A stretch of DNA of 64,000 nt from Siphonodentalium dalli. Its lineage: Eukaryota; Mollusca; Scaphopoda; Gadilida; Siphonodentaliidae. The DNA lies in assembly GCA_032622095.1 (NCBI GenBank), contig CP136069.1:159701043-159765042 (forward strand). Direction: 5' to 3'. The notes beneath the pieces are model-generated. The model saw nothing but the letters and a program-made list of their open reading frames with translations, did not search any database and was not told the DNA's origin. The translations under genes were made by a program, and so were the position numbers. Below are positions 2,145 through 57,800 of this stretch, one piece after another (the stretch's first letter is position 1; the number at the start of each line of letters is the position of its first letter).

Positions 2145-2543
2145 TTAACCCTTTACCCAACAAACCGGCCAAAACCGGCCAAATAAAGCTTCAACAGCCT
2201 AAAATATCTTCGGTCTGTCTCAATAGAACCATACAAATATGGATATCATTGGAACCGGCTCCTTGACCACATTGTGATAGTTACAGTTATGCCCTGTGCC
2301 AATGCATTCTCTTATATATGCGAGTCGACCATAGGTCGCCTCGCATATATAAGAGAATGCATTGGCCTAAACAAATCTTTTTTTAACACTTTTTACCATT
2401 TTTTCTTACATTCTTTAACAATTTTATAATTTTTAATGTGTTAAGCCAATGCATTCTCTTATATATGCGAGGCGACCTATGGTCGACTCGCATATATAAG
2501 AGAATGCATTGGCACAGGGCCCTTCTGTTGGGTAAAGGGTTAA
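2145..2543 (+). mobile_element. TTAA MITE family A (double hairpin), copy 1
   Basis: TTAA|CCCTTTACCCAACA left end and TGTTGGGTAAAGGG|TTAA right end. It contains two about 75-bp near-perfect hairpins (CCAATGCATTCTCTTATATATG arms split by a GTCGAC-type loop). No ORF. Opposite orientation to copies at 9.2 and 27.4 kb. Confidence 0.93.
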
Positions 2544-6000: not shown

Positions 6001-9000
6001 CGAAGCCATTGAAATAGTAATTGAGAGGAGTTTTATCGGGTTGAGTACCTTTAAATAGAATGTAAAGTTTGTTTTAAAATTCCCATAAAAAATATAAGAT
6101 ATTAAAATTGGTTCTAAATGGAACATTGATGTGAGATATTTTCTCAGTCAGTTTCTGTTTTTGATTTTCAGGACGCTAATGAATGTTGGACAGAAGTTGT
6201 TCGGTGTTTGCAACAGAAATTACCTGCTTTATCAGTAAGTAATTAAAAAAAGGGTTTTCTTCTCACAATAATGACTACCTCCCTGAATTTAACAAACAAA
6301 AAAATTAATTTTTAAACATGTTATAAAATTTGAAAAAAGTGACACCATTATAACATCCGCAGTTATGAAACTTTAATCTTTAATGATATTACGGAAACAT
6401 TCCATTACCCATCCCCCCTCCCACATGACCCAGATCCAACCCCCACACCCTGCACCCAACCAACATCCCTTCCAACCGATATCATCTCCAACTTCCAACT
6501 TTAATACCTGTTCTATCCAGAAGCAGATATATCTCTGCAGAGAGACAGAGAGAGAGACACAGGTCATAAATCTAGATTAGAATAATATATGTCATCTGGC
6601 AGCTTTGTGTAAACAACACTGCTAGCAAATTAAAACAAACTGCCTGAATTTAGTGTGTCTGACATTTGCAGAATGAGGTCCCCAGAGGGTGAATTTAGTG
6701 TTGCTACCCCATACAGCAGGCTAGCATCACCAAATACACCCCCAGGGACCTAATTCTGCTTAGGCATCATCTTCTGGGAAGTATCTTAAGTATCAAATTG
6801 AAATTTTGTTTTAGTTACTTTTTGACTTTTTCCCTTCTGTTCAGTTTCTATGTCCCCCTAATTTGCAGAAGATAGAATGCATAATTGAGGTGCTCAATGG
6901 GTGTGCATTACAAGCTTCAACTGTAGAACTTCAATCTGTTCCCAGGTTTCCCATGGCTGTTGAGGCCTAATCAGACTGAGGATGAATCCGGTGATGCTAG
7001 CCTGCCTTGCGGAATAGTGTCATTAAATTCACCTTTTGGGGACCTCATTCTGCAAATGTCAGACACACTATATTCAGACTTGGCTGGCATGTTATTTTCT
7101 TAACCACCACTTATCCAGATGAAATCATACCCTGATTTTTCAAAGAAAAATTGGGGGGTATATTGGATTGAATTTGTCTTCTGTCTGTCAGGCGGTCCTT
7201 CCATCCGTCTGTCTGTTGGGATGTCTATCCATCCGTCTATCAACAATTGTTTTCTTCTCCATATTAAAGACCAAATATGTTTATATATTTCAGTGTGCAT
7301 GTTTCCTAGGTGACTCGCAATCAGATTTGTTCAATAAGTTCATCAGATCAAATAGGTGCGAAGCTAGGGCCATAACTCTTTCCCTCCATAGTAAATCTTA
7401 AAACAATTTCTTCTCAAGAACCATTGAACCTATATTAACTTATATTTGGTATGGATGGGCCTTGGGTGACCGGGTTCAGATTTGTTCAAATGGGGTCATT
7501 TCAGGAAATGAGGTCCCCAGAGGGTGAATTCGTTGATGCTATTCCACCTTGGGGAATAGTGTCATTAAATTCACCTTTTGGGGACCTCATTCTGCAAAGG
7601 TCAGACACACTAAATACACACACTAAATAACCACACATTTTCTTAACCACCACTTATCCAGGTGAAATCATACCCTATTGGATATTGGGGATATATTGAT
7701 ATTACTAGATGAATGGATCTCATAGATGGGGATTCACATTTGTTCTAATAGGGGCAGAGATAAGAGATTTAACTCTCCTCTATCCTGTTTGGTACTGGTA
7801 TAATAATATTGATTTCTAGGCAGCCTGGGTGGGGGAAATGTTTGAGGCAATGGGGAAGGAGTGTAGAGGGGTGGAGTTTTGACCCCCTACTTTGATCAAA
7901 ATTTAAACAGTTGAAAATTTCATGCCTGATACAACATTAGTTGTAGATTATATGTTCACATTAAAAATAGGTTAGAATTGTTCTCATAGTTTGGTTTGAT
8001 TTTCCAACATGTATGTTTTTAAACCAACAGTCCATATGTTCCTACTTCAGGTTAAACTGTTGGACCAAATTGGCCACAAATTTTAACTTTATGGGGTTGG
8101 TAAATTTCAAACGTTTGAGAGCTTGAAGTACTGGTACCAGTTGTAAAATTCAACCTAAAAGGGATGTGCAAAAGGATTTTTGTAAACTTAGTACTGTGGT
8201 ATGGTTGTCTTCTTTAAAAGGTAAGAGCTTGGAGATTTGTCAGTGGTGTGCAATTAGAAATTTCAAGTTGAAGAGCCCTGCTCATCTGAGAACCTCCAGC
8301 TATGTCCATGTTTAGAACTACTTGTCTTAAGTGATATTTACTGACTCTTGTAGTCTTCTCCCAGTCTTTACAGTCTGGTGAGCGACCCACAGTCATTGAC
8401 TGTCTTGTTGTATAATAAATAGAACAATCATCATCTACATTGGGCGATTAGTAAATTTTAACAACTGAGCATCAGCCAATGGTTCCTCACTAGAATAGCA
8501 TGTCAGAATTACACTGTTAGAACATTATTAATTTATTTTTAATTATCATTACAGGCGCAGCCATCAATCACAGCATCTGGTGGTCGAGGATTCATGGACC
8601 AATACATGTCAGGAGAGTTTGAAGTTGTGTATCCTTTGAATACCTTTGTCAGTTTTAAAGGTACGGTTGGCCTTGGCGGTGGGTATCCTGTGAAAATATT
8701 TCCACCCGTCAAAAACCGCCACAAACAGAAAGAACATCAAAATGTAGACAGACTTTGTCCGTATACAAATAAGAAATATCGCATAAACAGTATGTTATTG
8801 TCATATTTTTTACCATTGTTATGTAAACAAAGGCATAAAAAGTTACTTTTCTGGTGTTTGTTTATATTATGATGGTAAACATAAAGAGCGTTCTTTGTGG
8901 GTGAATTCCTGATATGGAACGAATAAAGAGCGTTTATGCCATTTGTGTGTGATTAGCCAGCAGCATTGTGTTGTATTCTGTAACACAATCAGGCTCTTGC

Positions 9001-12000
9001 TTAGGTAAAATATAGTAAATCTTAATGATAACATGCTGTTTACGAGATGGTCATGGTATATATGAACGAAACTGAATGCGTTTTAATGTTTTTCTGTTTA
9101 CGGTGATTGGAACAAATATGAATATTTTCGACAACTAAGGCCGCACGTGCCTTTAATGATAATGATTAATTAGAACAACAACATAATTTTTATAAAACCC
9201 TGATTTAACCCTTTACCCAACAGAAGGGCCCTGTGCCAATGCATTCTCTTATATATGCGAGTCGACCATAGGTCGCCTCACATATATAAGAGAATGCATT
9301 GGCTTAACACATTAAAAATTATAAAATTGTTGAAGAATGTAAGAAAAAATGGTAAAGAGTGTTAAACAAATTTTTTTTTTAGGCCAATGCATTCTCTTAT
9401 ATATGCGAGGCGACCTATGGTCGACTCGCATATATAAGAGAATGCATTGGCACAGGGCTAATTGTAACTATCACAATGTGGTCAAGGAGCCGGTTCCAAT
9501 GATATCCATATTTGTATGGTTCTATTGAGACAGACCGAAGATATTTTAGGCTGTTGAAGCTTTATTTGGCCGGTTCTGGCCGGTTTGTTGGGTAAAGGGT
9601 TAAAGGCTACAAATATCTTTTTTGTGAATAAAATACAGATAAAACTGAAGATTGGGTATAATGTTTATCTGTAAAGGTAGAACAAAGTTGTTAATTTCAG
9701 ATGCAGCTGAGCGTGATTCACTAAGAAGATAGAGTTCTCCCTCCTGGTATGCTCCAGGTACGCTTTGAATGTTTTTGCGAGATTTCTCTTGTTAAAACGG
9801 CCCGTTACCATCCCGATAGAAGGTATTTTCTATGAGAAAATGTCTAAATAAAATTGATATTAATTGATAGAAACTTTTCCAGATAGGTGTCCTCGATTGA
9901 TATTTATTATTTGTTGCTCTAGAATCTATATAATGCTTGCTAGGAAATGATACACTATCTTTAAACCATATTCGTAAAGTGACATTTCTTGCTCTTCTTT
10001 GTTTTTTTTATGGCCCCAAAAAGGGGTCCATTTTACAGACCCTGTGCTGCCCTAGTGGAAACCCTGCATGGGTTATCGGATCTGAATGAAATTTGGTACG
10101 GATACTCACCATCATGACTGCTTTAAAAAGAGGGGCCATTGGCGTTGTTTCCATTTATGTTCTTCACTTTTTCTTTATCTGTTTATTTCAAATTTGAGAT
10201 TGGTCCTGTCCATGTTTCAATTTGGCAGTGTGGGTGTATGCCAGAAATCTTCTTGTTTAAAAATTACAACGAAAACCAAAATTTATCAGACATGAATAAA
10301 CCTCAGCAATCTTAATTAGCACATCGCGTGTCCAAGCTTTTGTTGCCGAATATCGAGAATGTTAATAACAGGATTTTATTGCATAAGTCTACATAAGATA
10401 GGTGAAAGTCACTCTCTTCTCAAAAACAATAAATTCGAGAATGGGGATTATTTACCGAAGCCAACATCTCATTAATCTACTTAATACAAATATGTCTCTT
10501 AAAATCTGGTTACAAAAGTAGACTTGTGATTGTGTCATGTTTCACAAAAGCCGGACTGCTATATGTTGCTGTTAATACTTAATAATTCAAACATTTGTTA
10601 TTTATATTTATATTTATAAGTTAGATTGATTAAACATTGTAATTAGACCTTAGATACTCTTCCCTTAATATACTTCAAGATCGATCAAGTTACCTCCTTA
10701 GGCTTTGAATGTACATCGGGTCTATAGAGTTACCTCCCGCATGACATTTCTCCAAACAGTGACCACGATAGTTTCAAAGAAATTTTTTTCCATGGAGTTT
10801 TTAATTTTGTTGTTATCAACAACCACGAAAACCACAAAAATTGGACCACCACGAAAAAATGTACTTTTACAGTATTCCTTATCTAAGCTTAGATTACAAT
10901 GTGATGAAGATTCAGAAGAACCTGTGACCAAATCCACCGAGACATTCTTCCAACTAAGCTGTTTCATAGAAAAAGGTTGGTTTGTTTTTCAGTCAAAAAA
11001 CATGATATTGGAAAATATGCTCTGCTCCCAGTTTATTACTATCTGTTGCTGCAACTCCATTAACTTGTATATATAGAGGATCTCTAATGAGTCGCAATTC
11101 TATTAAAAAGTTATTAACTGAGTGCACTAAATTTTATTGAATTTAGTGGACAAGGTTAAAGGTACTCAATCTGATTCGATGGTCCCCATATCATCCGATT
11201 CCAACAAAAATATTTTTTGAAATGCCGCTTCAGTTATCAGAATCGATTAATTGCCCGAAAATAATGCTAACAGTCATCTATAGTATAAAATCGCCCAAAA
11301 CGTGTGATTTATCAACATTTTGTTCAACAAAATCGGGCCAGATTGTCAATTTTCTAACACCGAAAGGCGGTTGAGTTTAGTGTTATCCATCATCGTCCGC
11401 AATTTGGTCCGAGACCATCGGCATGATGAATATTTGCCAGGCCAACAATAAGTACATATCTTGAAAAATAACAGATTTAAAAAATTTATATCTGATCACT
11501 CTTATCATTGATTGGTGGGTTCCGAAACCAAAGAAATAGTAATTTGGGAGCGTTAATTCGGATTATTAGAATTGCGATGAATTTGAGATCCATTTTATCA
11601 CATAACATTTTAGCAAGGATAAAATGATCTTGAAACGGCTGAGGTTAAAAAACTAATTAATATTGATTTCCTTATCACAACCAGAGGAAGTAAAGACACA
11701 TTCAAGAAAAAATATAGTTCCATTTTAAATGTGTCTTTTCATGTTGACAACATTGTTCAACCACCCTTATCACCCATGTTTATCTCACAGTCAACACTAA
11801 ATAACCCAACACAAATTGAATATCTTAATAACAAAGTCCCGGCTTTAACATTGACATCACTGCGCTAAGCTCTTACATCACTGTGCATGCCGATAATACA
11901 CTTGTGTCTTTCTAAAAAATATGAGGCCATGTTTAGGGGCTAATTATGTGATAAAAGGCTATTTTGCAAGCCTTGAAATAGTGTGTCTTGTCATTTGCAG

Positions 12001-21000: not shown

Positions 21001-24000
21001 TATTGACTTCTTATATATATATTTTTATTTCCTCTAGCTAGGAGAGTATTATCTTTAATAAAACTTCTGAATTTTGATTTTTTGATACTCACTTGTATAA
21101 AATTTTGACCTTGCAGGATGTTAAATTTTCTATGAATCTAGATGTCTATGATCTGTGTTCAGAAGAGCTTCAAAAGAAACTGGTACCAGCGAGAGATAAA
21201 TTCAAACAAGCTGAAGACAAGTTTCTTGAAGATGCTCAAAAGGTATATTTTGCTTTATCAACCACTGGGGTTAAAGTTTTATTTATCCCCTGCCCGAAAA
21301 TTTTCATCGGGGGGATACAGGAATGGGTTTCGTCCATCTGTCGGGGAGGGGAGTCTGTCCATCCCAAAAAGTTGTCCGGGAGTTATTTCGTACAATTATC
21401 AACAGATTTCAAAGAATTTTGGTATATGAGTTCACAAAGCGAATATCTTAAATGAGTTTTTAAACTAGGCCCGGGCAGATATTTTCACCAGCGTTACAGC
21501 CCTTTGATTGTCATATTTTTGAAAAGTTGTCCGGGGTGTTATTTCGAACAATTATCAACATATAAAATATTAGTCTCCCTTTAATTAGTTATCTGAGGTC
21601 AAAGGCACCTGTCGCATAATATTCCCCTGGCCATTATATTCCCCTGGTCATGTGAACATATGTTTACCAATTTTACTACATATCTTTTAAGCTTATAAGG
21701 AATGCTCTGTATTGCTCATTTATGCCCCTTCACAGATTACACAGATGCACCTCTGATAACCATTAAAGAAAGCCAGCAAACAGATGCACGGAATTTGTCC
21801 GGAATTTAGCTTTGGCACGCACCCCGTTGAAACCACATTCGTCTATATCATCTTGTTCGCATCATATCAGTAAAACATTGACTTGATAACCCCTTTGGGA
21901 AATGCATTATATCTCAGGTTGTCTTGCACCGATTGGCCTGAAATTTTGCATGTCTTATTCTGAGATGTGCCGCAGGATATGGTAAAAGTTTAGGTGCAAT
22001 CGGACATTAGGGTGATATATTTTTAAATGCACTAAAATCGTGACAAATAAACACTTGGTTCCATCTATAGATAGATTAATCTAGCTATATTAACCTAGCA
22101 TTTTTAACTTTAATATATCTAACTTGTTTGTTATGGTTATTTTAGCATGTTAAACTATGTTAACATAACATCTTAGAAATGTTACTCAATGTATGTTTAA
22201 CTACGCTAGAAAGATTTTCAAGTTCCCAGACCTCCAATGACAACATTTTTGATGCAGTTGATTTTATTAATGAATAATCACATGATTAAATACACCAGCT
22301 CTGATCACATCATTTTAAGATTGCAAAATATAATGACATATATGCTCTACTTAATTACTTCAGGCAAAGGCAGCTGGTAAAAAATTAAATAAGGAAGCGC
22401 CAAGTGATGGGCCAATGGAACCATATGCATTTGATGATGGTGAGTTTATCATTCTGCTTCCAAATTCCTATAAAACTCCACATAACATTCCTCCATTATT
22501 CCTTCACACGATTTGCAAGTACCATAACCGAATTGGAGCAATCTCAATCAACTTCATTGCCGCCACCTGCCATAGAATTCAAAGGAAAATTAAAACCAAA
22601 ATTGATCAACAAAATATCGTCAAAAATGTAGTGTCCAACGAGACTACGGGTGCCCCTAACAAGAAGTACGCCTGCTGTAGATGATGCGATGATACAATGC
22701 AAAGCACAGGTGTTCTTGCATCATCGCCAGCAGAACTCTAAATTTAAAAATTCATACTATAAGGCCAAGCCAGAGTTTAGTGAGCTTGTCATTTGCAGAA
22801 TGAGGTCCCCAGAGGGTGAATTTAGCATGGCAGGCTAGCATCACTAAATTCACCCTCTGGGGACCTCATTCTGCTTAGGCCTCATCTTCTCCGGAAAGTT
22901 TCTTTATTATCAAATTTCTATAGAAACTTATATTCTATTTCTTTTTTAGTTTAGTCTCTCTATATCCCCAAAATGGCAGACGACACATTGCATAATCAAG
23001 GGTTCCCAATGGGTGTACATCACAATCATCACCATTTGGGAACTTCAATCTGAGTCTATGTCTCTCATAGCTGATGAGGCCATGCAGAATGAGGTTCACA
23101 GAGGGTGAATTCAGTGATGCTAGCCCGATATGCGGGATAGTATCACTAAATTCATCCTCTAGGGACCTCATTCTGCAAATGACAGGCACACTAAACTCAG
23201 ACTTGTTTAAGGCCAAATAAAAAATTTCATTTGAGTCTCAGACACTGCCACATTGAAATAAATGGCCAGCTTTGGCCATATTATTTTGATTTTTGATATT
23301 ATGACACAAAAAGTTGAGCTTCAGTGTCACTGACACTTTCATTTTACTACCTTGCCAGAATAAAATATCTTCTTCAAATACTCAGTGGATTATACAACAT
23401 AGGTTCCATTTTTAGCTCAACTTACTTTGTAAGTTTGAGCTATTGCCATGGTTTGGCGTCCGTCGTCTGTGTGTGCGTGTGTCCGTCAACAATTTCCTTT
23501 GGCGCGGGATACAGGTCGTACCTTTGTTCTGATCTTTATGAAATTTGTCATGGATGTTAATATTGACATGTAGATGGGAACGAGTGATTTTGGGGTCGTT
23601 CGGCCATAAAACATGGCCGCCAGCAGCCATCTTGGATTTTACTCTTTGCATGACTAAATCCTTTGGCGCGGGCTACAGGTCGTAGCTTTGGTCGGAACTT
23701 CATGAAATTTGTCATGGATGTTAACAATAACATGTAGATGGGAACTAGTCATTTTGGGGTCATTCGTCCAAAAAACATGGCCGCCAGCAGCCATCTTGGA
23801 TTTTACTCTTTGCATGACTAAATCCTTTGTCGCGGGCTACAGGTCTTAGCTTTGGTCAGATCTTCATGAAATTTGTCATGGATGTTAACAATGACATGTA
23901 GATGGGAACAAGTCCTTTGGGGTCAATTGGCCAAAAAACATGGCCGCCAGCAGCCATCTTGGATTTTACTCTTTGCATGACTAAATCCTTTGGCACAGGT

Positions 24001-27433: not shown

Positions 27434-27833
27434 TTAACCCTTTACCCAACAGAACGGCCCTGTGCCAATGCATTCTCTTATATATGCGAGTCGACCATAG
27501 GTCGCCTCGCATATATAAGAGAATGCATAGGCTTAACACATTAAAAATTATAAAATTGTTAAAGAATGTAAGAACAAATGGTAAAAAGTGTTAAAAAAAG
27601 ATTTTTTTTAGGCCAATGCATTCTCTTATATATGCGAGGCGACCTATGGTCGACTCGCATATATAAGAGAATGCATTGGCACAGGGCATAACTGTAACTA
27701 TCACAATGTGGTCAAGGAGACGGTTCCAATGATATCCATATTTGTATGGTTCTATTGAGACAGACCGAAGATATTTTAGGCTGTTGAAGCTTTATTTGGC
27801 CGGTTTTGGCCGGTTTGTTGGGTAAAGGGTTAA
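27434..27833 (-). mobile_element. TTAA MITE family A, copy 3
   Basis: About 400 bp between TTAA sites, just downstream of the USP14 stop; probably in or next to its 3' UTR. Same termini and hairpins. Confidence 0.93.
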
Positions 27834-30896: not shown

Positions 30897-33800
30897 CTGT
30901 AAAACAAAGGTATCAATGTGTGGACAGAGATGAATAAAGAGGTGTCACTGCTACAATGGGAGTACGTATCCCCCACATGTGCATACGGCTCACAAATTTA
31001 GAATCCATGTCCCCCAACAAGGTGGCTTTTACCAATGTTGGCTTTCTGAGGGGATATTGACTTTAAAAAAAATTATATTTTCTGAGTAGAGGTAACTTAT
31101 GTCACAATCTGGAAACTAAAATAATCACAGTTGAGAATGAATATGTAACTTTGACAAAAATGTTAAGTTTCTAAGTCTAAATAAACTCGAAGCATCGAGA
31201 ACCAGAGAGTATATACCTAGCGTCAACATGACAGTGGGAATAAGCCTGAGTTTAGTGTGCCTGTTATATGCAGAATGAGGTCCACAGAGGGTGAATTTAG
31301 TGATGCTATCCAGCATAGGAGACATAGACTCAGATTGAAGTTCCCAAATGGTGAATATTGTGATGTACACCCATTGTCATGTACACCTCGATTATGCAAT
31401 CTGTCGTCTGTCAATTTGGGGAGAGAAACTAAAAAAGAAATAGAATCTATGTGAAGAAGTTTCTATAGAAATTTGATAATGAAGAAACTTTCCCGAGAAG
31501 ATGAGGCATAAGCAGATTGAGATCCCCAGAGGGTGAATTTAGTGATGCCAGCTCGCTATGCGGGATAGCGTCACTAAATTCACCCTCTGGGGACCTCATT
31601 CTGCAAATGACAGACACATTAAAATCATGCTAGAGTGCGAATCAAGATATTGTCATATGAGAGTCCAATGATGTGCGCCTACTTCAGATAGAATTAAACC
31701 CTTTCTTTACTAAATACCCTTTTGGCGACAAGTTCTTTTAGGAAGTGTTCGGATAATAAGTTCAACAACAATTATTGAACTTATTATCTGAAAATTTCCC
31801 ACCAATCAATAGGATTCCTTCTGCACTTTTATTATCTGTTGTCCACTTATTTTTCCTGAATACCCCTCCAAATGAATAAAAGACCATTCCATGTATACTT
31901 TTTTAGCTTGGTGGGAGAATCCATTTAGTATAGAAAGGATTAAATATGCACAGTATGTCGGCTGATGTTCATGCTGAGTCTATGGCTGTGGGCCAATTTG
32001 AACTTTTATCCAAAGTTTTGCGGATAAAAAAAAAAGAATCCAGCAATATAAATTCCAATTTAGAAAATGAGACTGCTACAAGATCTGCTGATCAGAGGTG
32101 GATGTTATTACTCGCACCAGTAAATGGACGCTTATTGTCCCCCGAAAAAAAATTCGGGGGACTATTAAAATAGCCGGTGTCCGTCCGTGCGTCTGGAAAT
32201 GGTTTCCGGATGATGACTTTAGTTTCGGTTATTAGATCAAAAGCAAATTTCATAGGTGAGTTTATCAGACCAAAATAAAGGTCAAGTTCGAATATGGGTT
32301 TGCTGCGCCCATTTTTGCAAGAGTTATGGCCCTTTTTTTACTTAGAAAACCCCTGAAAGTTGGTTTCCGGATGATAACTTTATATATACTTAAAGGTACT
32401 CAATCCGATAAAACTCCTCTCAATTACTATTTCAATGGATTCGGGGGTCAAAAATAATTGATTCGAGTCGAGGAAGTCACCCATCAAAGATCAGATTTGT
32501 TAGATATCGATTTTAGAAATCTATTATTTTTTTCATTATCGGGAATACTATCTGGCCCAGAACTCAGTCAAAATTGCGTTATTATTACCACTTGATTTTA
32601 GAGTTATCCATCCTTGTCTGTTTGAATAGATTTTGGTGTACACATCCAGAGCAGATTACGGCAGTTGAAGGCAATTATTAGTACTCATCTCGAGTAAATA
32701 ACAAATTTCAAAAATCAATATCTAATAACTCTGAGCTTTGTTTGATGGGTTCCTCGACTCGAATCAAATATTTTATACCCCCAAAGCCAAAGAAATAGTA
32801 ATATAGGACCCTCTGATCGGATTGTTGTTGTTGGAATCTGTTCAGATGGGGACCCTCTGTTCGGATTTTTGGTAATAAATCTGTCATATTAAATCTGTCA
32901 TATTGGAAACCAGTAAAGGGGTCATGACATCACGACGCATATCATGATGTCACAACCTAACTCCAGACAGGACTGCATCGATGACCAGACAGCTGAGACT
33001 CGCATTACACAGACAGGCTAAATGATCCAACAGCTTCGTGTTTTATTATAATACATATTACATGCAAGGAAAATAAGTGGGCAATAATACTGCCCATTAG
33101 AAGCCCATTTATTTAACTTGCAACTTGGAAAATAAGTAATGATCGCACCTAAAAGATGCTTGCGGAATAAAAGACTAGCCCATGCCCGGATATACAATAG
33201 ATATTCAACAGTTGTCACCTCATGATAATAAGCAACATCTCAGTGAAAATAGCGATGACAACTAACACACCTCATTACTTTATTAGTGGGCGACAAAGAG
33301 TTATTGCACTTGGTTAAGCGGATTTATGTGATTATAATTATATAGAATGTTAGATTTGTGTTTGCGAATTTTGTTTTAATTTCTATTGTGAACCGCCCAG
33401 AAAATGAGGATTTAATTTGGCCAAATTATTTCTTTAATTTGGACAATAAAATTTTCATTTGGCATTAGACAGGTGTTGATTATTTTGATGTATCGTTACC
33501 ACTCAGCTGTAGAAATAGTCCCAGATAGGCATTGATTATTTTGATGTATCGTTACCACTCAGCTGTAGAAATAGTCCCAGATAGGCATTGATTATTTTGA
33601 TGTATCGTTACCACTCAGCTGTAGAAATAGTCCCAGATAGGCATTGATTATTTTGACATATCGTTACCACTCACCTGTAGAAATAGTCCCAGATAGGCAT
33701 TGATTATTTCAAAGTTCTTGTTAGATTCCAGAATGTTTTCCACAAGCTTTATGAATGAACACATAACTGATATGGATCCACCTGCATCTGGGGCCAGAGA

Positions 33801-36800: not shown

Positions 36801-39800
36801 GCTAGTCTGAATTTAGAGTGAAAACAAAACCAAACCTAACCACGTGATTTTGGTAAAATAAAACGAACCACAGGTTAAAAATAATAAATACCAGTCCCTA
36901 TGATGAACACTGAAAACACTGGACAGTGTATATAATAGAAAAACATAATATAATACATGACAGGCAGACAAACAGATTATACAAGTGCAGAAGGATGCCT
37001 AGTAATTGATGAGTAATGTTCAGATAATAACCCACAGACAGTTTGTTAAAACTTATTATCTGAACATTTCCTAAGGGAACTACTCAGCATTGAGTATTTA
37101 GAAAATAAAGTGTTAATATAACAGACACGAATCTAATTAGATACTTTGTTATTGTACCTTATCCTTATCTATGGAATCGTCATCATAAGCAAATTTTGGC
37201 TGCAGTCCAGCAATGGTCGGAAGGAAGAAAGGTGCTGCTTTAGGTGCCTTTGGTGGTTCTTTTGGTTTATTTCTTTGCTGAAAAGAATAACTACATTTAA
37301 AGAGATACCCTTTTCTCATTTGAAGAATTTTAATGGTGCAATCAAGTCTTTAAATAGTGTGTCTATCATTGGAGGAATGAGGTCCACAGAGGGTGAATTT
37401 AGTGATGATATCCCACACAGTGGGCTAGCATCACCAAATTCACCCTCTGGGAACCTCATTCTGTTTAGTCATCATCTTCTGGGAAGTGTCTATTGTCTCA
37501 AATTAACATTGTTTTTAGTTACTTTTTCCCTTCTGTTCAGTTTCTAATCCACTAATTTGCAGAAGATAAAAAGCAAAATCAAGGTGACTAATGGGTGAAC
37601 ATCGCCAACTTCAAATGGGTAACTTCAATCTGATCCTAGGTCTCCCATAGCAGTCGAGGCCTAAGCAGATTGAAGTCCCCAGAGGGTGAATTTGGTCCTC
37701 TGTGGACTTCATTCTGCAAATGTCAGACACACGATATCCAGGTTTGGTATCTTTTCAGTAAAATATCAACAACAATGGTTGAAAATCTTCATAATGACTC
37801 ACCTTTATCACATCCAGGTTAATAACTCACTTCATAATGACTCACCATTATCACATCCAGGTTAATAACTCACTTCATAATGACTCACCTTTATCACAAC
37901 GAGGTCCAATAAGTTAAATCTTCATAATGACTCACCTTTATCACATCTATGTTAATAACTCACTTCATAATGACTCGCCTTTATCACATCTATGTTAATA
38001 ACTCACTTCATAATGACTCACCTTTATCACATCTATGTTAATAACTCACTTCATAATGACTCACCTTTATCACATCCAGGTTAATAACTCACTTCATAAT
38101 GACTCACCTTTATCACATCCAGAATAAATCACATAATGATGACTCACCTTTATCACATCCAGGTTAATGACTCACATCATAATGACTCACCTTTATCACA
38201 TCCATGATAATAAATCACATAATGATGACTCACCTTTATCACATACAGGTTAATAACTCACATAATGATGACTCACCTTTATCACATCCATGATAATAAA
38301 TCACATAATGATGACTCACCTTTATCACATACAGGTTAATGACACACCATTGTCACATCCAGGTCATAATGACTCATCTTTATCACAACGAGGTCCAATA
38401 AGTTGAATCTTTATAATGACTCACCTTTATCACATCTATGTTAATAACTCACTTCATAATGACTCATCTTTATCACATCCAGGTCATAATGACTCACCTT
38501 TATCACATCCAAGTTAACAACTCACTTCATGACTCACCTTTATCACATCAAGTTTAATAACTCACCTTTATCACATCCAGGTTAATGACTCACCTTTATC
38601 ACATCCAGGTTAATGACTCACCTTTATCACATCCAGGTTAATGACTCACCTTTATCACATCCAGGTTAATGACTCACCTTTATCACATCCAGGTTAATAA
38701 CTCACCTTTATCACATCTATGTTAATAACTCACTTCATAATGACTCACCTTTATCACATCCAGGTTAATAACTCACTTCATAATGACTCACCTTTATCAC
38801 ATCCAGAATAAATCACATAATGATGACTCACCTTTATCACATCCAGGTTAATGACTCACATCATAATGACTCACCTTTATCACATCCATGATAATAAATC
38901 ACATAATGATGACTCACCTTTATCACATACAGGTTAATAACTCACATAATGATGACTCACCTTTATCACATCCATGATAATAAATCACATAATGATGACT
39001 CACCTTTATCACATACAGGTTAATGACACACCATTGTCACATCCAGGTCATAATGACTCATCTTTATCACAACGAGGTCCAATAAGTTGAATCTTTATAA
39101 TGACTCACCTTTATCACATCTATGTTAATAACTCACTTCATAATGACTCATCTTTATCACATCCAGGTCATAATGACTCACCTTTATCACATCCAAGTTA
39201 ACAACTCACTTCATGACTCACCTTTATCACATCAAGTTTAATAACTCACCTTTATCACATCCAGGTTAATGACTCACCTTTATCACATCCAGGTTAATGA
39301 CTCACCTTTATCACATCCAGGTTAATGACTCACCTTTATCACATCCAGGTTAATGACTCACCTTTATCACATCCAGGTTAATAACTCACCTTTATCACAT
39401 CGAGTTTAATGACTCACCTTTATCACATCAAGTTTAATGACTCACCTTTATCACATCAAGTTTAATGACTCACCTTTATCACATCGAGTTTAATGACTCA
39501 CCTTTATCACATCCAGGTTAACAACTCACTTCATGACTCACCTTTATCACATCCAGGTTAATGACTCACCTTTATCACATCGAGTTTAATGACTCGCCTT
39601 TATCACATCCAGGTTAATGACTCACCTTTGTCAATTCCAGGTTAATGACTCACCTTTATCACATCGAGTTTAATGACTCACCTTTATCACATCCAGGTTA
39701 ACAACTCACTTCATGACTCACCTTTATCACATCAAGTTTAATGACTCACCTTTATCCCATCCAGGTTAATAACTCACCTTTATCACATCCAGGTTAATAA

Positions 39801-42800
39801 CTCACCTTTATCACATCGAGTTTAATGACTCACCTTTATCCCATCCAGGTTAATAACTCACCTTTATCACATCGAGTTTAATGACTCACCTTTATCACAT
39901 CCAGGTTAATGACTCACCTTTATCACATCCAAGTTAATGACTCACCTTTATCACATCGAGTTTAATAACTCACCTTTATCACATCCAGGTTAATAACTCA
40001 CCTTTATCACATCCAGGTTAATGACTCACCTTTATCACATCCAGGTTAATGACTCACCTTATCACATCCAGGTTAATGACTCACCTTTATCACATCGAGT
40101 TTAATGACTCACCTTTATCACATCGAGTTTAATGACTCACCTTTATCACATCCAGGTTAATAACTCACCTTTATCACATCCAGGTTAATAACTCACCTTT
40201 ATCACATCCAGGTTAATGACTCACCTTTATCACATCCAGGTTAATGACTCACCTTATCACATCCAGGTTAATGACTCACCTTTATCACATCGAGTTTAAT
40301 GACTCACCTTTATCACATCGAGTTTAATGACTCACCTTTATCACATCCAGGTTAATGACTCACCTTATCACATCCAGGTTAATGACTCACCTTTATCACA
40401 TCGAGTTTAATAACTCACCTTTATCACATCCAGGTTAATAACTCACCTTTATCACATCCAGGTTAATGACTCACCTTTATCACATCCAGGTTAATGACTC
40501 ACCTTTATCACATCCAGGTTAATGACTCACCTTTATCACATCGAGTTTAATGACTGACCTTTATCACATCGAGTTTAATGACTCACCTTTATCACATCCA
40601 GGTTAATGACTCACCTTTATCACATCGAGTTTAATGACTCACCTTTATCACATCCAGGTTAATGACTCACCTTTATCACATCGAGTTTAATAACTCACCT
40701 TTATCACATCCAGGTTAATGACTCACCTTTATCACATCGAGTTTAATGACTCACCTTTATCACATCCAGGTTAATGACTCACCTTTATCACATCGAGTTT
40801 AATGACTCACCTTTATCACATCGAGTTTAATGACTCACCTTTATCACATCCAGGTTAATGACTCACCTTTATCACATCCAGGTTAATAACTCACCTTTAT
40901 CACATCGAGTTTAATGACTCACCTTTATCCCATCCAGGTTAATAACTCACCTTTATCACATCGAGTTTAATGACTCACCTTTATCACATCCAGGTTAATG
41001 ACTCACCTTTATCACATCCAGGTTAATGACTCACCTTTATCACATCCAGGTTAATGACTCACCTTTATCACATCGAGTTTAATAACTCACCTTTATCACA
41101 TCCAGGTTAATGACTCACCTTTATCACATCGAGTTTAATGACTCACCTTTATCACATCCAGGTTAATGACTCACCTTTATCACATCGAGTTTAATGACTC
41201 ACCTTTATCACATCCAGGTTAATGACTCACCTTTATCACATCGAGTTTAATAACTCACCTTTATCACATCCAGGTTAATGACTCACCTTTATCACATCGA
41301 GTTTAATGACTCACCTTTATCACATCCAGGTTAATGACTCACCTTTATCACATCGAGTTTAATGACTCACCTTTATCACATCGAGTTTAATGACTCACCT
41401 TTATCACATCCAGGTTAATGACTCACCTTTATCACATCCAGGTTAATAACTCACCTTTATCACATCCAGGTTAATAACTCACCTTTATCACATCGAGTTT
41501 ATTGACTCACCTTTATCCCATCCAGGTTAATAACTCACCTTTATCACATCGAGTTTAATGACTCACCTTTATCACATCCAGGTTAATGACTCACCTTTAT
41601 CACATCAAGGTCCAATAAGTTTTGCCATCGTGAATTTGGTAGCAGAGAGAGGGTGATCAGTTCATTTGAAATTTGTTCTCTCGACTTGAATTCTGACATC
41701 TCGTATTTTTCTAATTCTTCTGAAGACTCCTCTTCTTGTTCTGTGAAACAATGAAATCATGAAAATGTCATAATGGGCAGAGCATAGTGGTTGCTAGAAG
41801 ATGCAATCATCTCCTCAAATACATTAATTAGTTTTACAGCCTATGCTTATGCAGGTTGACACACACAAGAACATACATTGTTCTAATCTTTAGTAGTGAA
41901 ATATTCATGGATAAATTTGCAACGCCAGTGCACAAATCACAAATTCAGTAAATTAATATTTGAAAACAATTTTTTTTTTTAATACAGTCAAACTTGCCTT
42001 GAAACATGAATAAGATTCCTTTGTGCGGATCAATATTCTGTGTTAACCGGTAATAATCACACCATCTGCATTCACACAATTAGCTTCAGTAAGAACCCTG
42101 TTTTTAAGTTATTAGGTCTAAATTAGGAACAGTCCCAGATAGGCATTGATTAAATAAAACAAATGGTCTTGTATATATATAGAATTAGTGCATAATAAAT
42201 TAATCAGATTCCTTTGTGTGGATCGAAATTATTACAGGAATTGAACCAGAATCGTTATTGCAGGATAGATTATGAAGGCTTAATGTACTTTGCACCTTAT
42301 TTGGTTAGAAGGAACTAAATGTTTTACATATGCCTCAGTGTTAAAGTTTGGCCACGCCCACGCTAAATTCCAAACTGAGCTACTAAAATCACCTTGTGAC
42401 AATCTTCCAGCCGCTGGCATGTGTAGAGTAACAGGAACATAATCTGAGGGCAAAGGTCGCAGGGAGACATGTGTGAACAATGTCATATTGGACCAGAGAT
42501 ATACCCCAATGTCGTCTACATGAGATGTCGCCAGGAAATCTCCAGTTGGTGAGAAAGACATCGAAGTTACAGCCAAGTCAACAAGAAAACAATCAATCAA
42601 CCTGAAATTTATTGAATCGAAAAATAAACAATCGATCAACCTGAAATTTATTAACAATAACATTAAACCTTCCATGACTGGAGCTTCCTGAAATATTATG
42701 AAAACCTTGTTCCAATCCTATGGGAGACTTGCATATATAAGAGAATACATTGGCCTTGCAATATTTACCTTGACCTGAAAAGCCAGTGCATTCTCTTATG

Positions 42801-51800: not shown

Positions 51801-54800
51801 ATCAATTACTCATTTAGAGGGGTGTTAACCCTTTCATGACCAGAGCTGTGCTGGTGTAGCACTAAAGACCTTGTGCCAATGCATTCTCTTATATATGTGA
51901 GTCTCCCATAGGGAGCCTCACATATATAAGAGAATGCACTGGCTTACAATATCAAGGTAGATATTGTTAAGCCAATGTATTCTCTTATATACGCAAGGCG
52001 CAAGGGCGAGCCCGCATATATAAGAGAATGCATTGGCACAGGGTTTTCGTAAAATTTCCATTTGGAAAGATAACCACACAGTCAAACACACAATAAATAC
52101 AAGTGCAGAAGGATTTCTATTACTAAATTGGTGGGAAATGTTCAGATAATAAGTTGAGATAATGTTTGTTGAACTTATTATCTGAACACTTCCTGAGAGA
52201 ACTACTCGTCAATGAGTATTCAGCATAGAAAAGGTTAGGCAAAAACCTTAAGAGAGTTGTCTGGAGATGATGTGGTTAGTAGTGGTTCGTTCGGGAGGCA
52301 CTGCAGTCCAGTTATAGTGCTGTTATGTGCATCTCTGATCTGGCTCTGTAGCTTCTTCTCCTCAAGATTCCATAACGCTATGTGGCCATCCGTACTCCCC
52401 GATACCATTATGGGGTGTCCATCTGTTCAAAAGAAACACGCACAAACTCGTTACACATGAACCATAACACTATGTGGCCAGCCATACTCTGATACCATGA
52501 TGACATGCCCATCTGTTCAAGCTAGTTACATATGACCCGTAGATGTTTGGGTGTCAAACAGCCTTATACTTTGGATTGTTGAAATTGGGGGGGGGGGGGG
52601 GGGGGGGGGGGGGTGTTACTAGTATTTAAGGGGCCTTCCTTCATCCATTAAAATGCACTGTGGATGTTCTAAAACATTTTCTTTCAAAATTTATTTCCAA
52701 TCTTGGATCAAATGAAAGCCCTATCAATCTGTGAATCAATTGTTTGGATTCACAGATCAATTCCATTGCAATCCGATAATCCATGGTTGAGATATCTAGA
52801 ATCTGGAAATCATTATTTCATCTTGTTAATTAAAGTAAAAAAGTCTAAGCCTATAGCAATTGTTGGGCATATTTGTTGAAAATTCCCAATTAATATTCAT
52901 CGTTTTGCAGCAATTTTGACATTATATTTAATAATTTATTTTATTAATTTATCTTTAAATCTCCTTGAGCAACTTAATTATACCACATATCCTCAAGAAG
53001 AAACCAGAATCGGTCTAGCAAACTTTTAAAAAATAATCTCACAGGCTGGGACAAGTGTATTTACACAATATAAAAGAACGGGTATGTAATAACATTATGA
53101 TAACACATTATTTCTTACCTGTTCTGAATGATATTTGCTGTGACTGCTCCCCAGTCTTGTCTAAACTTTACAATCGTTTCGTCAAACCTGATGTTATGCA
53201 GGATAATTTCACCATCTGATAGTCCGATGGCAAACAACATCTATTGCAGGAGCCTGGTGTAAAAATAAAATAAGTCATTTTAATACCACTGATTTCATTT
53301 TATAGTATAATCAAGATGTGGACTATATTATATATATATATTTATTATATGGCTTCCGCCATTAAATAAATAGTGGGGAAATTATATCCATCACCAGTTT
53401 TGGTGAATTTTATAATGTAGCACATATAATAAAAAGAACACCTGCAGGTTTTGGTTTAATACCCAGACTCAATCAAGGATACACGGAAATACAGAATTTC
53501 CACTCGTGGCTGAAATCACTCATAGAAATACTGTATTTCCTTGTAGCCACTCATGAGATAATCTGGGTATTCAACCAAAAGCCGTGAGTATTCTCTATAT
53601 GTCAGAGTTTATGGATGCACGGACTCAGTATGAGTGTTCATTGCTTCAAATGTGCTTAATTGAGTGAGCGTGAACAAATTCTCAGTTCTTATCGTAATGG
53701 CCATGTCTCGATCGGAATGGCACATTGAGATGTCCCTCAACTCAGATCAAGCTTGAAATTTGGTCCCAATTATAAAAGAGGACCAGCCTAGAAGTTTCAA
53801 ATTGGGAGAAGTAATAATTTCTGAAGTTCAAGTTTTCACCCCAACATCACCCTTTTGTGATCCAATAAGTAAATAAGCCATAAAAGAGCCAATTTATAAA
53901 CCATTATAATGAGTAATGCACCATTTTATTATATGCTAAGCTATCAAATAGTAGTATTTTTCAACAGGATAAAAACCGCTATCCGTTCTAGTGAGATATC
54001 GATATCTCACTCGTATCCATCCGCGCTAAATGAAAAGTGATTCGGTTCTTGATGGAACACTGCCATAAGTCTGATTGTTCAGGTTGAACAAAACTTTAAT
54101 ATGTGATCAATTAAATATGTTTTTAAACATACTATGATGATAGCCCCTTATCCTCAACTAATCTGTCTGAAAAATGAAACTACTTTTATATGCGCAAGCT
54201 CATTACCATGGCTGTGCTTGTGTATACAATTGTTTTTGCACTTTTTACTCTTCTTTCGAGTTGAGTTATGGGCCAACTGAGCGGAGCCTATAATAAACAG
54301 AACATCTATACTTTTTGGTTGGATATGGGTAATTATCTCATTCGTGATGACAAAAACAATTCATTTTTTTTGTCATCACTCATGAGATAATTCCCATATC
54401 CAACCAAAAAGTGTAGATATTCTCTATGTAATCAGCTAGTATATACACTGTTTGGACATAAGCATTTGAGACTCAGAGAAGACACTTCTCCCTGGGACAA
54501 AAATAGAAAGAAGTGGCACAATTTGGGGAGAAGATATCTCCCAATCCACCCTCTAGGCTGGTCCTCTCCCAAGCCGCCCTCTAGGCTGGTCCCTGTGTTT
54601 GAAAATATATTTTGACAATCTGCCTCATGAACATTGTATACAGTCATATATACTATATATCTATCTATTGTCTCAAATTAACATTGTTTTAGTTACTTTT
54701 TCCCTCCTTGGGAAGTTTCTATATCACCTAATTTGGCAGAAGATAAAATGCATAATTGAGGTGACTAGTGGGTAAACATCACCAACTCAACTGGGGAAAT

Positions 54801-57800
54801 TCAATCTGATCCTAAATTAAATTCACCCTCTGGGGACCTCATTCTGCAAATGAGAGACACACTATTTACAGGCTTGTTTGAATAAAGTGTCGTTGTGTTC
54901 TTAAAGTGAATATGCTGCCATATTTTTTGGGAAATAGTAACCAGAAATACGCCATAATGTTAGCCTTACCTGCTCTAAGGACAGTGATTTCTTTGCCCCA
55001 GCCAGGGAACGTGTATAGTAGTTTGTTGGACTTTATATTCCACAGCTGCAAGGCTCCCTGTTTGCTGGCAAACAAAAGTTTGTTGAGGTATGTGCTCGGG
55101 TGAAGCAGACATGTTATCTGGAAAGACTTGTTCTCAAATTGTAGCTCTAAGTATATTCCTGTAAAAAGAGGGCAAGTCTTGAAATAGTGTGCCTGTCATT
55201 AGCAGAATGAGGTCCACAGAGGGTAAATTTAGTGATGCTACCCCGCATAGCGAAATGTTTCATATAAAAGTCTTTTCCTTGAATTCTGAGTATTTTGCTG
55301 TCGGATTATAGTTTTTGGAACGGGAAAAAAATTATAGCGGGCTAGCATCACCAAATTCACCCTCTGGGAACCTCATTCTGCTGAGTTGTAAGCAGAATGA
55401 GGTCCCCAGAGGGTGAATTTGGTGATGCTAGCCCGCTATGTGGGGTAGCATCCACTAAATTCACCCTCTGGGGACCTCATTCTGCAAATGACAGACACCC
55501 TATTTCAAGGCTTGTATCTATATAAATTTTAGCTTGCTTGGTGTAGAGACCTGCAAATCGGCACTTTTCCACATCTGATCTCAAATCAGGAGTCCAACGT
55601 TGATATCGAATCAATTCTCAAATCTCGAATTGAATTGGCTAGCGCAAGTGCATGGCATAGGTCCTCAAAGTCAATCGTTATTTTTGTTCCTATACGGCAT
55701 TGATGAATTTCAGTATATAAAGTATTTTGAATGAAAATAACATCCTATGTGCAATTCACCAGTTGTATAATTTGTATACATTCTGATTAAAGAGGTACTG
55801 GTAGAGTCATAAACTCGTTTTCATTATAATTACCAGTGTGTTTGCATCGTTCATAGAACACACAAGTGTATTTTGCACTAATACATGGCTCAAATCTCAT
55901 TCATTTGTTGCATATATGCTGTAGAGTACAAAATGAGATGGTCCCATAAATAGCAGGATTTAGCGTTACCAGCCCACCCCCCCCCCCCCCCCTTTAAAGT
56001 TTTAGCAATTAAACTAAATTATGCAGTTTACTAATAATCTAGATGTGATATTACTACAATAAAATCTGTGGTTGGATTTGTGCTGTAATCATGCATATGA
56101 CACTCACTAGCGATGTGTTTGTGCTGTCATCATGTAAACAACCCTATAAGTTAATACAATTAATTAGGAATGCACTTAAAATAATATTAAGGCAACACAA
56201 GTCAATTCCGGTTTCTCAGGCGAGTATGGTCCCTAAACCCCACGCATGTAACATTTGTATTCATACTCAATCTGTTGGGGAAAGTTTTAATCAGTACAAA
56301 ATTAATTGCAGTACATTTTTCATACAAACACATTGATTGCTTGCGAGTGCAATCTCAGTAAAAGATATGAATCGATCATACTTGATTAGACTATTTTTTA
56401 CTAAATAAATCGCAAGGAATCTATCAACTAACTTTTTATGGACATTTGGTCATGAAGTAATTGCCATGGCAATTGAAATAAAAGGTCACCAACCACGTTT
56501 CTTCATATTCCGATGAAGATAAACCATAATGTACCCAGCAATGGGCCGGTATGACCTGTAAACGCAATAATACCGTCTTCAAGGTTTACCGATTGTGAAA
56601 AAACGATGGTAATGGTATTGAAAATCTTACCGATTATAATCGGTATACCGAAATACCGGCCAACACTAACTAAAAGTAAAGTTATCCGCAAACAAAAATA
56701 ATCAGCAAATTTGACCTGTATCTTCATGTGGTTTATCCACATACCAAATTTAAAAACAATCAAATAACAAAAAAAGTTATCATCCGGAAACCTCAAAACG
56801 ACAAAATTATAAGTCGAAAAGCGGCCATAACGCCAGCAAAAATGGGCGGAACGAACACATATTCGAACTTGATCTGTGTTTTGAGATGATAAACTCACAT
56901 ACCAAATTTGGTTTTGATCCGATAGCCCAAAATAAAGTTCTCATCCGGAAACTTTCAGAACGGATGGCAAGACGGACACCAGCTATTTTAATATTTTCGG
57001 GGTCAATTAGACCCGGAGCTTGCCGATACGGAGGTGGAATGCTTCGTTGGTGTGTGTCCCAGAAATAAAAAATAAAATAAAAATATGCGCGCATGCTTTT
57101 CAAAATCTTTTGGCCTGAGAAATGACAAATTGACTTTGCATGGCTGCAGGGTCCGCGCTGGACCAAAATTTACTTTGCCAAATAATTTGCCAAATGCTAT
57201 CCCTGATAGTATAATTTTCTGCAACAATGAGTCTTATGTTGTGATTTATCATACAACATTAAACCAATCACCGAAAAATAAAATTGTTGAAGGGTTGCTT
57301 CATCCGAAGGGCACGTTATAAGAGGATTAGATATGTAAACACGACCACCACACTAAATACGGATAATCCCTCACTCATCAATACTAATGCTATCAGATTA
57401 ACTGCTTCTTAATAAAGGTGCTAATTTGTCCTAGACCTTATAAAACACCGCTAATATAATTATATTGTGAGAGTTTCCTGTAATGAATGGCATTGATTCA
57501 CCAATATTTTTAAACTTTCTTGAGGAATTAAAAAGTGACTTGCCAAAACTTTCGCCAAATGAAAATATTTTTTGCCAAATGTGAATTATTTTTGCCATTG
57601 GCAAATTTGGCAAGTGGTAGCACGAACCCTGCATGGCTGGCCATTGGATAAAAAAACAGAAGAATGTATCTAGGTTCCTAGGTGCAACCTCATTATACTT
57701 GGGAAATGAAAATATACAGATAGTAATTCTATGGTCTCAGTTCAGATGGGTGGGAAATCTTTAATCCAACCTTCAGTTTTGATGTCCCAGATGATGACAT

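Follow-up and report, generated by a model that had tools for sequence, protein, structure and literature searches.

An intronic minisatellite of candidate 5′ splice sites, derived from the adjoining exon end, in WDR36 of the scaphopod Siphonodentalium dalli

The scaphopod Siphonodentalium dalli carries, on contig CP136069.1 of assembly GCA_032622095.1, a WDR36 gene in which most of intron 14 is taken up by head-to-tail copies of the end of exon 14 together with its 5′ splice site. The gene lies on the minus strand of the stretch analysed here (64,000 nucleotides (nt), positions 159,701,043 to 159,765,042 of the forward strand; hereafter the window, from whose first letter positions are counted unless they are given as C9 coordinates). 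Its identity is indicated by the joined sequence of exon 14 and the next exons, which matches human WDR36 in structure 7mq8 with an E-value of 1.3e-26 (phmmer), and Utp21 chains as well. Pfam matches at the gene comprise the second propeller of WDR36/Utp21 and the Utp21 domain, and a genome search with PF04192 returned six matches, three in each of two WDR36 copies, one of which is the copy in the window. Exons were placed by reading frames and tblastn, giving 17 exons from 59145 to 33675; those before exon '1' or after exon '17' lie outside the model. All 17 placed exons are flanked by AG and GT in both gene copies, and each of the 16 introns between them measures at least 267 nt in both. The main features are the following.

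41595..41740, minus strand: WDR36 exon 14 (of 17 placed), 146 nt, ending in LDLDVIK at phase 0, source of the array (phmmer match to 7mq8, GT-AG model)
41589..41594, minus strand: GTGAGT, the authentic 5′ splice site of intron 14 (−10.7 kcal/mol predicted for pairing with U1, rank six among the 17 placed donors)
37790..41594, minus strand: minisatellite that fills most of the 4317-nt intron 14 with 121 further units of exon end and donor, mainly of 28 bp
39263..41607, minus strand: exon-proximal, more uniform part of the array, units 1-84, of which 79 are 28-mers (unit calls)
37790..39234, minus strand: distal mixed part, units 85-122, of 28, 30, 40, 43 and 47 bp (unit calls)
37889..37915, minus strand: one of three stretches matching the exon's last 27 nt at 25 positions, a likely trace of the founding duplication
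37158..37277, minus strand: WDR36 exon 15 (QRNKPKEPPK...), the authentic downstream partner of exon 14 (homology and gene model)

On the minus strand, exon 14 ends in ...AACTTATTGGACCTTGATGTGATAAAG and is directly followed by GTGAGTCATTAACCTGGATGTGATAAAGGTGAGT..., which runs on for 3.8 kb. Sequence inspection and the unit search bear out the exon, donor and array as the original prediction had described them, with a small correction to its figure of about 125 units: a fuzzy search that allowed at most three substitutions, one insertion and one deletion per 18-mer found 122, the real junction included. The 121 spacings between units are mostly 28 bp (87), followed by 43 bp (18), 40 bp (6), 30 bp (4), 27 bp (3) and 47 bp (3). 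Tandem Repeats Finder reports a period of 28 with 109.9 copies and 84% matches at 38529-41611, as well as a period of 43 with 29 copies at 37787-39031, and the head-to-tail units thus lie within the 10-100 bp of a minisatellite or variable number tandem repeat (VNTR). A 702-bp stretch (39401-38700), partly inside the distal mixed part, is exactly repeated at a lag of 684. The sequence AAGGTGAGT is present 112 times in the array, and both strands of the window lack it elsewhere.

The intact donor of an authentic exon, GGTGAGT, is present in 113 of the 122 units, as would be expected of a splice-donor minisatellite of the IFI6 type, and this upholds the claim that most units keep GTGAGT; the GT itself is retained in 116 units by column tally. 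Donor strength was taken as the predicted pairing energy to the 5′ end of U1. By this measure 109 of the 122 units equal the real donor, while three others, each with a 1-bp deletion upstream, still have an intact AAGGTGAGT. The real donor is good for this gene, not the strongest. Variant cells over the 122 units number 25 in the 12 exon-derived columns (22 if the 1-bp deletion, double-counted in three units, is counted once per unit) and 9 in the six donor columns. There is no clear excess or lack of change in the donor columns relative to the exon-derived ones, and hence no sign of constraint on the donors or of their purging. The donors are copied along with the rest of the unit, showing no clear retention or removal, and as their variation resembles that of the exon-derived columns it is what would be expected of passengers. 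The most variable of the 23 columns tallied is the C/T position just after the donor, at which 21 of 122 units differ.

The sequence TGAGTCA is the AP-1 consensus, and the array might consequently act at the DNA level as a dense cluster of AP-1-type enhancer sites in which the donor motif is a by-product. The motif is indeed concentrated, with 98 occurrences in the 3.8-kb array; the remaining ~60 kb of the window has five, counting both orientations, and the array of the second gene copy has four. However, TGAGTCA follows from the donor GTGAGT plus CA, the motif is lost in 33 occurrences of TGAGTTA, and the high variability of the C/T column is the opposite of constraint; we regard such a role as very improbable.

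The end of exon 14 encodes residues kept across WDR36/Utp21 proteins, reading LDVIK in the WDR36 of 7mq8, IDIIK in 5ica and 5oql (which we take to be from Chaetomium) and LDVIR in 7suk (presumably yeast). Because of this conservation, the exon end is read as the source and the array as the derivative. The exact junction 18-mer GATGTGATAAAGGTGAGT occurs 103 times in the 2,226,750,531 bases of the genome, 99 times in the window and four times in the second gene copy, whereas its reversed control has no genome match; a chance match of the exon end, which the original prediction had named as grounds for its own rejection, is excluded by these counts. Derivation of the units from the exon's own end and donor is further indicated by three interior units that match the last 27 nt of exon 14 at 25 of 27 positions, so that homology extends beyond what had been claimed. 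Their exon-like parts start at 39088, 38404 and 37915, each preceded by an intron-like AAGATT..AAC. A dispersed satellite that invaded the intron and resembles the exon end by chance would account for the 28-bp head-to-tail organisation, but it is hardly credible in view of the 25/27 exon matches inside the array, and it was rejected as a candidate since all 103 exact 18-mer matches lie at WDR36 and none at other loci, diverged copies not having been searched for.

The breakpoints point to how the array may have been founded. The sequence is GAAGATTTTCAAC/CATTG in the intron past the last unit and GGCAAAAC/TTATTGG in the exon, with the breakpoint at the stroke. The array probably began as a tandem duplication of ~49 bp, comprising ~24 nt of exon and ~25 nt of intron, with the 3-bp microhomology AAC at both breakpoints.

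The counterpart of exon 14 in the second gene copy lies at C9:159969215-159969360, 226.6 kb away and across a gap of 100 N; it is 96% identical to the window exon and deviates from it at several sites. The array is present there too, but short, as an intron 14 of 672 nt holds six units (28, 43, 43, 43 and 28 bp plus a terminal one), in comparison with 122 units in the 4317 nt of the window intron. As the 43-bp and 28-bp unit types are common to both copies, the array is older than their split.

The surroundings of the two copies are collinear with interruptions, matching at ~88-99.7% from C9:159670654/159887542 to 159765822/159993238. One break occurs in the second copy at 159985619-159992165. 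For 159985501-159992000 no match was found in the left block, in a comparison that covered the region in part, without the 115 kb between 159765822 and 159881043. The 10 kb to the right of the window gave a single weak match to the expected counterpart, with collinearity resuming later. The gap itself (C9:159887291-159887390) has similar sequence on both sides (~159.67-159.89 versus 159.89-160.12 Mb). Sequence from ~150 bp past the gap matches 159670654 onward at 93%, although parts of this query also match dispersed repeats. The stretch 2.2-6.2 kb before the gap has a 99% match at 160114752-160118749. Because these overlaps of contig ends look like an uncollapsed haplotype, the two gene copies are probably alleles, the second haplotype having been retained when overlapping contigs were joined end to end through the gap. 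A true tandem duplication with its junction at the gap is possible but less likely.

In the second copy, the coding sequence stays open over 788 codons. The window copy shows three +1 differences from it in exons 3 and 4 (54970-55158 and 53119-53253, minus strand), upstream of the array, which produce one in-frame stop before the frame returns. These may be real or may be assembly errors; in the former case, the copy with the long array is a broken one. It is thus possible, though we give it a minority share of belief, that the copy in the window represents a broken allele or paralogue on which the array could grow without cost, while the six-unit copy supplies the protein. The +1 differences with their stop and the open frame of the second copy would be expected in that case. 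On the other hand, the other coding differences between the copies amount to 37 positions, 30 of them synonymous and seven in six amino-acid-changing codons, which suggests that the window copy was constrained until recently, and single-base length differences in short runs are of a kind that assembly errors may produce. The 'stop inside' flagged by the PF04192 search was also considered as a sign of a pseudogene and set aside, as that stop is positioned in intronic sequence after exon 17 and is not evidence.

If a later donor were used, reading in frame past exon 14 would give GTG AGT CAT TAA, so that DVIK would be followed by VSH and a premature stop, as in the alternative products of poison exons and NMD switches. 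The original prediction of a stop after four codons is correct in substance, the exact read-out being V, S, H and then TAA. In the second gene copy TAT replaces CAT, and the corresponding read-out is VSY-stop. Use of donors 1-4 would yield exons of 146, 174, 202 and 230 nt, respectively, and use of the fifth an exon of 258 nt.

How equal donors are ranked has been addressed in human genes. Two rules are described (PMC9225289): proximity across the intron favours the downstream donor, and proximity across the exon, which applies to exons flanked by long introns, favours the upstream one. The across-exon rule was found in human events with near-equal donors, in which the upstream site was preferred in ~60% overall. 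In minigenes with two identical donors separated by 52 nt the upstream one was used, and there the preference was clear (PMC9225289). In WDR36, exon definition would be favoured because all 16 introns exceed 250 nt and just three extra donors hold the exon within 250 nt. The preference for the exon-proximal donor that had been postulated for this intron agrees with this published rule of proximity across the exon, as stated for 5′ splice sites of equal strength.

We consider it probable that the array is a neutral, locus-private minisatellite of 5′ splice sites and that exon definition picks the real donor. According to this model, a segment of ~49 bp across the boundary of WDR36 exon 14 and intron 14 would first have been tandemly duplicated, the two breakpoints sharing AAC. 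The 43-bp and 28-bp units would then have arisen through slippage, unequal exchange and block duplication, and have expanded to 122 in the window copy as compared with six in the other gene copy. During splicing, exon 14 would be defined across the exon, as the published rules suggest, and the donor nearest the acceptor would be used. Donors 2-4 may leak slightly, producing VSH-stop transcripts open to nonsense-mediated decay, while the remaining ~118 donors would be silent passengers and the array mostly neutral.

Alternatively, the array may function as a splicing rheostat, in which the ladder of donors competes with the real one and the number of units sets the share of VSH-stop WDR36 transcripts that decay. 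This is unlikely in our judgement, even though 109 of the 122 units are predicted to pair with U1 as the real donor does and three more keep AAGGTGAGT behind a 1-bp deletion, the difference in copy number is large (122 versus six units), and in MIR137HG the length of a VNTR correlates with 5′ splice choice (PMC6692358). Against it, the exon stays within 250 nt with extra donors 2-4 alone, the donors carry no sign of being maintained, and the frame differences sit in the long-array copy. Since only donors 1-4 give an exon of 250 nt or less, any units beyond these should have little effect. The suggestion that copy number tunes WDR36 output is not supported, and the favoured model of a neutral array would argue against dosage tuning. 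We assign a similarly low likelihood to an allele-length-dependent splicing device, that is, a ladder of identical donors, present as a long and a short allele in one diploid, that sets the fraction of transcripts diverted to the immediate stop.

Several points weigh against the neutral model as well. The allelism of the two copies is itself something we infer from sequence, and the three +1 differences in exons 3-4 mean that the long array may sit on a non-functional copy. The across-intron rule (Reed and Maniatis, as cited in PMC9225289) predicts use of the downstream donor, the genome-wide upstream preference for equal donors is just ~60%, and the published tests concern human sequences with two donors rather than 122 (PMC9225289). 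The correlation of VNTR length with 5′ splice choice in MIR137HG (PMC6692358) points the same way.

The closest precedent appears to be the minisatellite of human IFI6 (6-16), whose units act as alternative splice donors (PMC4526556, citing Turri et al. 1995). In both genes minisatellite units carry alternative donor sites for an authentic exon; however, in IFI6 two downstream units are reported to be used, giving three mRNA species (PMC4526556), whereas the WDR36 array has 122 units with a conserved coding end and an immediate stop from later donors. In an intron gain in potato RdRp (PMC4974935), the duplicated segment likewise crosses a splice boundary and carries splice signals, as the WDR36 unit holds AGGT, but there a new intron was made, while the WDR36 array multiplies donors alone, in more than 100 units. 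Tandem repeats in human segmental duplications (PMC2812944) also have units of ~30 bp that alter the lengths of exons and introns and vary from one recent gene copy to another; they average four repeats and 160 bp, as opposed to 122 units and 3.8 kb with an authentic donor in most. The VNTR of MIR137HG resembles the WDR36 array as a tandem repeat located beside competing 5′ splice sites, but it is not made of the donors and has 3 to 14 repeats (PMC6692358). No account of the WDR36 array was found among the best matches in the open-licence literature, and by these comparisons it would be a new, extreme case of a known kind of splice-donor minisatellite. Human introns originating from tandem arrays were reportedly described by Zhuo et al. 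in 2007.

The locus offers a natural setting in which the end and donor of an authentic exon are repeated a further 121 times behind it, most of the donors being identical, against five times in the other gene copy, with a fixed VSH-stop read-out. If the copies are alleles, the RNA of one heterozygote would pit the across-exon rule against the across-intron rule on a scale well beyond two-site constructs. Should the splicing device be real, it would amount to a natural test of the order in which the spliceosome prefers identical donors. The array is also of note as a minisatellite whose origin in a particular coding sequence can be followed.

Other repeats occur at splice junctions of the same gene, two of them within the window.

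33476..33709, minus strand: second exon-end array, at the end of exon 17 (donor after 33675), period 56, 4.2 copies (tandem-repeat call)
42601..42653, minus strand: duplicated acceptor of exon 13, shifted by 39 bp, two copies in the window

The three extra donors of exon 17 read CTGAGT and lack the GT, and the second gene copy has one donor there; a single change followed by copying would explain these CTGAGT sites as well as selection. The acceptor region of exon 13, AATAAATTTCAGGTTGATCGATTG..., is present as three tandem copies in the second gene copy (L003 about 8580-8670). Splice junctions as a preferred target of tandem duplication, a notion raised by exons 14, 17 and 13, were not established as such, the test being ambiguous. 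Of the 34 junction 18-mers in each copy, 3 recurred within 1 kb with at most two mismatches in the window and 4 in the second copy, versus 147 and 198, respectively, of 2500 random gene-body 18-mers drawn outside the exon-14 and exon-17 arrays. Random 18-mers overlapping exons recur in 4 of 315 cases in the window copy and 10 of 345 in the second, and against these the junctions look higher. In the second copy alone, two recurrences within 1 kb were seen for the junction 18-mers at the exon 5 acceptor and the exon 10 donor.

Further repeats were noted in and near the gene. Intron 13 contains, at 42131-42151 (minus strand), an exact 21-nt piece of exon 17, AATCAATGCCTATCTGGGACT, ~8.5 kb upstream of that exon; the piece was not seen in intron 13 of the second copy. 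A 164-bp satellite has 3.1 copies at 23495-23994 of the window; in the second copy it forms a block of ~2.4 kb (C9 ~159959146-159961588) that lacks a counterpart in the window copy, where nothing lies between 31184 and 31185. Finally, a repeat element of ~400 bp occurs three times in the window (2145-2543, 9205-9603 and 27434-27833) and has inserted into intron 15 of WDR36 in the second copy (C9 ~159967985-159968371), the window copy lacking it in that intron.

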